A stretch of 64,000 bases of DNA, from NCBI GenBank assembly GCA_034670405.1, contig JAXDDX010000004.1, positions 12,269,501-12,333,500 of the forward strand, read 5' to 3'. Source of the stretch: Hoplostethus atlanticus (Eukaryota; Chordata; Actinopteri; Trachichthyiformes; Trachichthyidae). A model generated the notes under the pieces. That model made no database searches and was not told where the DNA came from. It was given only the letters and a program-made list of their open reading frames with translations. This document shows, in pieces, positions 12,001 through 15,000 of the stretch. The stretch's first letter is position 1. Each line of letters begins with the position of its first letter. Made by a program: the position numbers and the translations under genes.

Positions 12001-15000
12001 TTAATGTGTGCTCTGACAAACTGATAAACATGGCCGCCCATCCCCCCCTCCCCCCTCCCCCCAACCTTCTCTTTTCCCCACAGACATTGTGGGCACTGCC
12101 CGTCCGGACGAGAAGGCTATCATGACCTACGTCTCTAGCTTCTACCACGCCTTCTCAGGCGCTCAGAAGGTATCCCAGGATGCAACGCCTACCCCTACGT
12201 CTCCTTCCACCCCTCCTCCTCTTCCTCACTCTCCTCCTCCCCTGTCTCTCTGCCCATCTTTCTCCTAACGGTGCTCTTCTCTCTCTCTGCAGTGCACAGC
12301 CCGCCCCCCAGGGGTCACTCTCCTTCACTTTCCGCATGGTTCACGCCACCAATTGCATGATGGGAAGACAACACTCTGTTCTTAGAGGCAAACGGGCACA
12401 AGCGCGTCTCCAGTCCGCCCCACTGTCACAGCGCCACAGGCTACCCAGTTCTCCTCCCGTTCATCTCTGATTAGGGTTCAGTTGAACAGAGACGGAGCAG
12501 AGTGGGAGGTTTGTCTGATAAATGATGATGATTGGCCGTGATAAAAGCCATGGTGGCTGACAGAGAGAATCAAATTACCCTGAAGTCTAGCATGGTGGGG
12601 GAGATGTAACAGTCTAAATGGCTGGTTATGTTCAGCCTTGGCAATGACGGCTTAAATAAGAGGGCGGAGGAATGAATGAAATTAAAACCGGCACTTCAAA
12701 GCGGAGCAGAAAGCTGTCGTTTCATTTGAATGGTTTAGAGTGGGTAGTCTGTTCCCTTGTTTATCTGGGAGCAGCGTTGTATCTGACACTCACAGCCTCT
12801 CTATTGGATAATGATTGTTTGTCTGTTAGTTTGACAGCCACCTTCGAGCATCCTCTCCGGCTGCAGAGAAACAGGAAAACAAGCGTCAGATTGTGTTGCG
12901 TCTCCTCTCCGACAGTCGGGGAGAGACGGAGCATCACAGAGCACAGCGGTTATATAACACCTAATTTCATTTGAGAGGCCCAAACAAAAGCGTATACTCC
13001 GGCACAGCTGTGTTTAAGCAACACGGATCAAAAATGTCTCTGTTTATAATTGGACTGAGTGAAGAGGCTCCGCTTGCCTGATGAAGAGCGATGACACTAC
13101 AGCTGGAGGCTGGGTTGCATCATAGGGCTGAAAGGGGGACATGATACGGCGGGTCCTCAAATTGTCTTTCTATATATAGAAATATTTGGAGGATTTTTAT
13201 ATAGAGAGATGTTGAGATGTGTGGGATGTTTCTAAGTTTAGTTCCAAAGATATAATTAATAGCACAAAATGACAATGGTGCTTTATAAAGGAGGATTGAT
13301 GACTTTAGTCCTTAGATGACAAAGAGATAACACTGACAGACTGAATCCATGTTAGAGATGTTGGATGACAAACCTCAGATAATGATTTCTTTTCAAAATT
13401 GACATATGGCGTTTTTGGGATGAATTACTAGCAGCACTTCAAGGAGCTGTGAGTGTATTTGAACTCCTGTACATACTGATATGTTACATTACATTACATT
13501 ACATTACAGTCATTTAGCAGACGCTTTTATCCAAAGCGACTTACAATAAGTGCATTCAACATAGGTAGGCAAGAAAACTACTAATCACCAGAAATCGTAA
13601 GTGCATTTCCTTCCTAAACAAGCAACTAAGAGCATAACTAGTGCTAAGGTAAGAGTGCAATAAGTTAGCTACCTACTTTATCTTAAACAAATGAGACAAA
13701 TAAGAGAATCAAATAAACAAGAGCTAAGACAAATAAGTGTATCAAATAAACAAGAGCCAATAAACAAGAGCTCAGACACATAATTGACGACAAATAGGCC
13801 TCACCCTCAGGTAAAGGTTCTCTCTATCATCAGTCTCCATGAGCAGAGAAAACAGCAACCCTGAAGACAAACTGTACCTGTTGGTAGGCTGGAGATGACT
13901 TGTGCCCGGTGCTGCCTCCTCTGGTGATTGCGCCCCCTGCTGGCCCCTTTTGTCTCTGCACACTTTTACTCTTGTGCATTTTTCTCTTTCTCCTCCTCTG
14001 TGCCTCTCCCTCTTCCTCTGTTCCCCGAGCAGATATCATTAGCACCTTGAGGCCAGATGAGAAGGCCGTCATGACTTATGTGTCGTGTTACTACCACGCA
14101 TTCTCAGGCAAGCAGAAGGTGAGACCCACCCCACCCTCACCCCCACCCTCCCCCCTCCTCCCCCCCAGGGCAGGACAATATAACAAACCTTTCCATCCAC
14201 TGGCTACAACACCTGGTGGTTTCCAGACACTTCTACTGTTTAACCAGCCAAGTTAAATCTGAATTAAATCCAATTTAGCCGAAGAATGCCTTGTTTATAA
14301 CGATTCAACAAAAAATGGTGGCACAAACTGGCAACCCGAACATGTCACACACACTATCTGTACTATGGATGCATCAGAGGTATCTCCAGGATTTGGTTTT
14401 GCAATCCTGCGGTTTTATTTAAGTACTGGGAAAAACCCAGTCCTGCTATAATTGACCCACTAAAAACCCCTTGCTGCTGTGCAGAGGAAGCCATCTCTCA
14501 GTGGCAGCCGGCCAATAAGTGAGCAGCTTAACTCACCTGACCCTCTATCTCCAGCCAACAAGCAGCCACAGTCCTGCTGTGAAGGATGGAGTCCAAAGGG
14601 AAGCAGCCTTAGATGGATATTCGCTGCAATCACACATTCCTACCAGCTCATCTCAAAACATATGAAATGTGGTGGATGATTTCACCTAACGTGCCTAACA
14701 TTATTTGAGTGCATACATTTCTGGCATGGGTGGCCCCAGGTGGGAATCAACTTACCCACAACCATCTCATCTGTTGTGTGAGATATCGATCCTCGATCCA
14801 ATGCACAACCTTTCTCTCCTGCCAGTAAAAAGTTCTTTACATTGTCAGTGCAATACACTAAGACATGCCAAATCCCCTAAAGATCACTGCAGAAAATAAT
14901 AGAGGCTTACACACAGGATGTCCCGTAAGTCCTCTGTACTTAAAATCTTTATTAGGATCCACTCCCTACTGGAGTTATTGACCTCCTGAGGAGCGGAGGC

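Follow-up and report, generated by a model that had tools for sequence, protein, structure and literature searches.

Tandem exons 8a and 8b in the actin-binding domain of Hoplostethus atlanticus actn1: a probable alternative pair and counterpart of ACTN4 exons 8 and 8'

Human ACTN4 has two versions of exon 8, known as 8 and 8' (Actn-4sv, ACTN4-SpEx8), which differ by N249G, A251L and S264C (PMC7052930; PMC4539665). Among normal tissues, 8' is reported from testis, with traces in brain; it has also been studied as a marker in neuroendocrine tumours (PMC7052930). Human and mouse ACTN2 likewise have an exon 8 pair, 8a and 8b. Loss of QKI causes skipping of exon 8a or 8b in ACTN2, with a stop in exon 9 and removal of the transcript by NMD as the result (PMC7782589). 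The Drosophila Actn gene is also alternatively spliced in a tissue-specific manner in the region coding for the actin-binding domain (ABD) (PMC4550062); it is the single gene of an invertebrate, and the likeness takes no account of exon positions.

For human ACTN1, the variants described lie elsewhere: three transcripts are reported, and they differ in the C-terminal EF-hand region (PMC4435478). Splice events with homologous exons that are shared by ACTN1 and ACTN4 are stated to predate the vertebrate gene duplications, in a source whose relevant passage does not name the exons and which notes homologous exons in ACTN2 as well (PMC4465641); the ACTN1/ACTN4 pair treated in a later paper is the EF-hand pair (PMC9741552). 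Among the literature matches listed, the excerpts describe no ACTN1 exon 8b; Lek et al. 2010, Holterhoff et al. 2009 and Foley and Young 2013 stand outside this set.

The window analysed here is a stretch of 64,000 nucleotides from the 632.8 Mb genome of Hoplostethus atlanticus (1161 contigs; contig JAXDDX010000004.1, positions 12,269,501 to 12,333,500). It holds exons 2-21 of a near-complete actn1 gene on the plus strand. These exons were placed with the human ACTN1 protein, and each border was then adjusted manually to the AG and GT signals. The joined exons form a frame that is open until a stop at 27130-27132 in exon 21; no match above 22 bits to exon 1 (query residues 1-34) was seen within the window. 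The ABD matches human ACTN1 (483.7 bits) better than ACTN4 (456.8 bits), in agreement with the name given to the gene in a first-pass annotation made from the sequence alone. The features discussed below are listed in Table 1.

Table 1. Positions of actn1 features, counted from the first nucleotide of the window
Feature	Position	Strand	Remarks
Exon 7, common upstream exon	11597..11678	+	donor aag|gtaagc
Exon 8a, canonical version	12084..12169	+	good acceptor; weak donor gtatcc
8a-8b intron, 1863 nt	12170..14032	+	
Pyrimidine-rich stretch upstream of 8b, hypothetical candidate repressor region	13933..14032	+	81% C+T; 7 PTB-like words
Exon 8b, alternative version	14033..14118	+	acceptor scores lower and has a tandem AG (gagcag); donor gtgaga is strong
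Exon 9, common downstream exon	16572..16664	+	site of the premature stop when neither 8a nor 8b is included
EF-hand exon pair 19a/19b	25503-25583 and 25901-25966		

The first-pass annotation had described two exons of 86 nt that are equal in phase, have intact GT and AG sites and are alike in 22 of 29 residues; recomputation bore out all of this. Each exon lies between an AG and a GT and is reached from exon 7 after the first base of a codon; 60 of the 86 nucleotides are identical. The seven changes from 8a to 8b, numbered by exon position, are V3I, G4S, A6L, I13V, S19C, F20Y and A27K; K at exon position 11 is present in both versions. The peptide encoded by 8a and exon 9 agrees with chain 1sjj_A, labelled 'actinin', at all 60 of 60 residues, so 8a is the ordinary version. 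When the 8b peptide is compared with the whole genome, 8a is matched with an E value of 9.3e-9; this excludes a chance likeness of the two exons.

Both exons are kept by selection for the protein. The NG86 estimate of dN between them is 0.19 while dS is too high to compute (returned as -1), and synonymous codon use differs at 12 of 21 comparable codons (Met excluded); this is explained by protein selection holding both copies.

Joined exons 2-21 with either 8a alone or 8b alone are open as far as the normal stop in exon 21. When both are included, a stop appears at nt 16 of 8b; when both are skipped, a stop appears at nt 54 of exon 9. The expectation that both or neither would break the protein is therefore correct, and double inclusion and double skipping are unproductive. 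The stronger claim, that the choice must for this reason be exclusive, does not follow, as the frame does not force a choice; it is a quality filter that punishes errors and not the maker of the splice choice. Double skipping in actn1 resembles exon 8 skipping in ACTN2, since the stop lies in exon 9 in both. Steric exclusion through crowded splice sites was rejected as unlikely, given the length of the 8a-8b intron. Exons 8a and 8b are neighbours, equal in phase, under protein selection and unproductive when jointly included or skipped, and on these grounds they belong to the tandem duplicated homologous exons.

The same gene contains a second pair of tandem homologous exons, 19a and 19b of the EF-hand region, both of which lie in the window. 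These differ from the exon 8 pair in that they are 81 and 66 nt long, both multiples of three, so that inclusion of both or neither keeps the frame; they also belong to another domain. With 19a and 19b present as well, four combinations of ABD and EF-hand versions are possible.

The genome search with the 8b peptide scored 15 places. Seven are actinin exon 8 copies (E 3.1e-8 or lower); the remaining eight have E values of 3.9e-4 or worse. Two of the seven copies belong to actn1 in the window, two lie on contig C242 and one each on C65, C125 and C268. The ABD encoded on C242 scores 475.9 bits against human ACTN4 and 462.1 against ACTN1, which identifies this gene as actn4. Its two exons 8 form a tandem pair about 2 kb apart, with an 8a-8b intron of 1956 nt compared with 1863 nt in actn1; the actn1 and actn4 pairs are equal in order, length and phase and similar in spacing.

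In actn4, 8a and 8b are identical except at exon positions 4 (N to G), 6 (A to L) and 19 (S to C). This triple matches that of human ACTN4 in both spacing and residues. The actn1 pair occupies the same place in the ABD as human 8/8', its exons are likewise equal in length, and it shares the changes A to L and S to C: positions 6 and 19 of actn1 8b are occupied by L and C, as in actn4 8b. The three positions that change in actn4 are all among the seven that differ in actn1 (probability 0.0096 if positions were random). Position 4 changes from G in 8a to S in 8b of actn1, unlike the N to G change of ACTN4. The fish pair also differs from the human one in that it sits in actn1 and in that five further residues differ, G4S and A27K among them. 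Thus, the actn1 pair is a counterpart of ACTN4 8/8', not a strict member of that type. The first-pass annotation had pointed to an alternative exon 8 of human ACTN4 with changes at the matching Ala and Ser; this parallel is now firmer, as the fish actn4 gene has both versions and actn1 8b repeats two of the three replacements.

It is very unlikely that 8b is a decaying duplicate or a pseudo-exon that has lost its splicing. In favour of this reading, actn1 8b lies further than actn4 8b from the other exon 8 copies. Against this, the frame of 8b is open, its AG and GT are intact and its donor is strong; dN is 0.19 with a dS too high to compute; and the L and C of actn4 8b are retained. Taken as a functional pair, 8a and 8b are with high probability alternative, normally mutually exclusive, tandem-duplicated exons at the end of CH2 in the alpha-actinin-1 ABD, with 8b as the counterpart of ACTN4 8'. 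The actn1 pair is real, ancient-looking and probably functional; this type of splice switch is already known from ACTN4 8/8' and ACTN2 8a/8b.

The genes on C65, C125 and C268 each have a single exon 8, in which residue 6 is P and residue 19 is C. No second exon 8 was found in these genes by tblastn on 10 kb of each (matches above 21 bits). C65 is closest to human ACTN2, though by a narrow margin (479.2 bits, compared with 471.5 against ACTN3); C125 and C268 are presumably muscle-type actinin genes as well, judging by the residues of exon 8. The muscle gene ACTN2 of human and mouse, with its QKI-regulated 8a/8b pair, differs from fish actn2 (C65), which has one exon 8 in the 10 kb searched, although here the mammalian pair is likened to the fish pair by description only. 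Either the fish genes have lost a second exon 8 or ACTN2 gained its copy elsewhere.

The first-pass annotation considered 8b an ancient second version of this segment. The actn4 pair and the recurrence of L and C speak for this, but exon trees and whole-length distances do not prove the grouping. An origin that predates the split of actn1 and actn4 is the simplest reading and a likely, though not proven, one; common origin is favoured by what the pairs have in common in order, length, phase, residues and splice-site pattern. The competing explanation is that the pairs arose by separate duplications, or that one was homogenised within its gene, and that their likeness is convergent. Exon trees unite actn1 8b with actn4 8b with a support of 38 (DNA) and 66 (protein), and these low values would suit separate origins. 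So would the distances: actn4 8b is nearer to actn1 8a (70/86 nt, 27/29 residues) and to actn4 8a (69/86 nt, 26/29 residues) than to actn1 8b, for which both counts are the lowest of the three comparisons (65/86 nt, 24/29 residues). In addition, C at position 19 may be ancestral due to its presence in the three single-exon genes, which leaves Leu at position 6 as the one residue special to 8b exons. Separate origins are nevertheless unlikely: the two pairs are equal in order, length and phase, similar in spacing, and share two identical replacements and the same splice-site pattern, while the human ACTN4 pair shows the same three changes (PMC7052930), so that the actn4 pair at least is old. 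Dating of the duplication by exon tree was dropped because the exon is too short, the support weak and the distances partly contrary.

Donor, acceptor and U12 scores were calculated with approximate matrices, and by these the splice sites of the two versions are opposed. The actn1 8a donor (AAG|gtatcc) scores 0.3 and is the second weakest of 21 donors; the 8b donor (AAG|gtgaga) scores 6.6 and is the sixth strongest. The same is seen in actn4, where the 8a donor gtagcc scores 0.5 and the 8b donor gtgagc 6.7. For the acceptors, on which the first-pass annotation is silent, the order is reversed: 8a exceeds 8b with 9.0 to 5.7 in actn1 and with 5.4 to -6.4 in actn4. The 8b donor is thus the stronger one, as the first-pass annotation had it; its suggestion that 8a may need help agrees with the weak 8a donor but is one-sided, since the 8a acceptor is the better of the two. 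The single exons 8 have modest donors (C268, 3.0; C125, 3.9; C65, 1.3), so donor weakness is shared by exons other than 8a. The strongest hint at a mechanism is that both genes show the opposed pattern, which fits a default path from exon 7 through 8a to exon 9.

A quite different way to enforce exclusivity would be the minor (U12) spliceosome, if a U12-like 8a donor could not join the 8b acceptor. GTATCC agrees with bases one to six of the U12 consensus, and the 8a donor has the sole positive U12 score (2.0) among the 21 donors. However, positions 7 and 8 of this donor mismatch; the best candidate branch site upstream of exon 9 scores -1.4 (random windows: median -1.9, 95th percentile 5.2), so none is present there; the 8b donor clearly belongs to the major class and would need to use the same acceptor at exon 9; and the actn4 8a donor is gtagcc. 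This mechanism is extremely improbable, and U12/U2 incompatibility was rejected on the lack of a U12 branch site before exon 9.

Motifs of splicing regulators were counted in ten stretches (90 tests without correction, 200 shuffles), with microsatellites nearby. In the 300 nt before 8b, PTB-like words number 23 in actn4 compared with 8.1 expected (0 of 200 shuffles as high), and 9 in actn1 compared with 4.6 expected (uncorrected P 0.07). In actn1 they are also raised after 8a (11, 5.7 expected, uncorrected P 0.03) and in intron 7 (9, 4.4 expected, uncorrected P 0.07); consequently, these words are no distinguishing mark of 8b. In the 100 nt upstream of exons 6 and 18, PTB-like words number 8 and 11, respectively, compared with 7 before 8b.

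Other words are enriched as well, some of them at least as strikingly. TGTGT/TGTTT occurs 20 times in actn1 intron 7 (6.2 expected), 28 times before actn4 8a (15.1 expected) and 32 times in the actn4 8a-8b intron (7.3 expected). Paired CAC words stand out in several stretches; GGG occurs 9 times after actn4 8b (3.5 expected), and two GCATG lie within 300 nt after actn1 8a (0.1 expected). The QKI site ACUAAY is not enriched in the ten stretches, with one per 8a-8b intron compared with 0.9 and 0.8 expected, and QKI control as in ACTN2 was rejected on this basis. Two further ACUAAY sites are listed in the actn4 8b-9 intron. With 90 uncorrected tests and microsatellites nearby, the motifs do not name a regulator, and PTB is a hypothetical one for 8b.

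The microsatellites include CA and GT runs in intron 7 at 11696-11732 and 11830-11866, which form a perfect inverted repeat of 37 nt, and a further CA run at 16171-16200; the candidates for repeat looping are thus microsatellites.

From the splice sites and motifs, a working scheme can be proposed. Exon 8a would be the general version. Exon 7 would by default join the nearer and better 8a acceptor, while 8b would be held back at its acceptor behind a pyrimidine tract that is possibly bound by PTB. Where repression is relieved, 8b with its strong donor would be defined as an exon and the weak-donor 8a passed over. Transcripts with both or neither would carry an early stop and be removed by NMD. 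Testis and brain are rich in the neural PTB paralogue. The 8b version is most likely used in few tissues, for which brain and testis are guesses from the ACTN4 analogy.

Exon 8 covers residues 201-229 of ACTN1 chain 2eyi, which has 234 residues, and so encodes the last part of the ABD. The ACTN4 substitutions K255E and T259I fall in exon 8 with the altered 8' residues nearby; the sites are placed on the surface between CH1 and CH2, and an increase in actin affinity is reported for K255E (PMC4539665). Because the 8b changes adjoin these ACTN4 disease residues, one of them affinity-raising, 8b probably tunes actin binding. By this analogy with ACTN4, an altered actin affinity of the 8b ABD is plausible.

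It is quite possible, if a little short of an even bet, that the ancestral vertebrate actinin, before actn1 and actn4 split, already had a frame-linked ABD switch with opposed splice sites, and that fishes keep it in both of these non-muscle genes. If so, fish actn1 with its 19a/19b pair could make at least four proteins in which actin grip and calcium response are set separately, in contrast to human ACTN1, for which the described variants are all of the EF-hand region. The segment that changes encloses the K255E and T259I sites of familial kidney disease in ACTN4 (PMC4539665), and a natural fish actn1 version would permit the actin affinity of the ABD to be studied without disease mutations. 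The opposed splice sites in two genes also suggest a rule of splice choice that can be put to the test.

There are a number of minor observations. Use of the first AG of the tandem acceptor of 8b (14025-14033) would insert three bases in frame, that is, one Ala. Shortly downstream of 8a and 8b, at 12293 and 14169, are acceptor-like AGs that lie outside all placed exons and rank 2 and 7 among 1464 by the approximate acceptor matrix; they are either decoys or due to chance. With exon 10, no relative was confirmed in viral contigs. The sole match of an Rfam scan at gathering scores is a UnaL2 LINE 3' element, located within the 8a-8b intron on the minus strand (13504-13558). A large open frame at 46308-47897 encodes what we take to be a sodium/calcium exchanger, slc8a3-like; ACTN1 and SLC8A3 lie in a common region of human chromosome 14.

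A further duplicate was observed in the actn2 gene on C65, where exon 6 occurs twice in tandem (L022:2698-2776, 79 nt; L022:3065-3140, 76 nt). Exon 6 matches number one each in actn4 (L019), C125 (L021) and actn1, and none in the examined part of C268. Both C65 copies are bounded by AG and GT, equal in phase and without a stop; over the first 22 codons, NG86 gives a dN of 0.14 and a dS of 1.85. As neither 79 nor 76 is a multiple of three, this exon 6 would be a second frame-linked pair in CH2.
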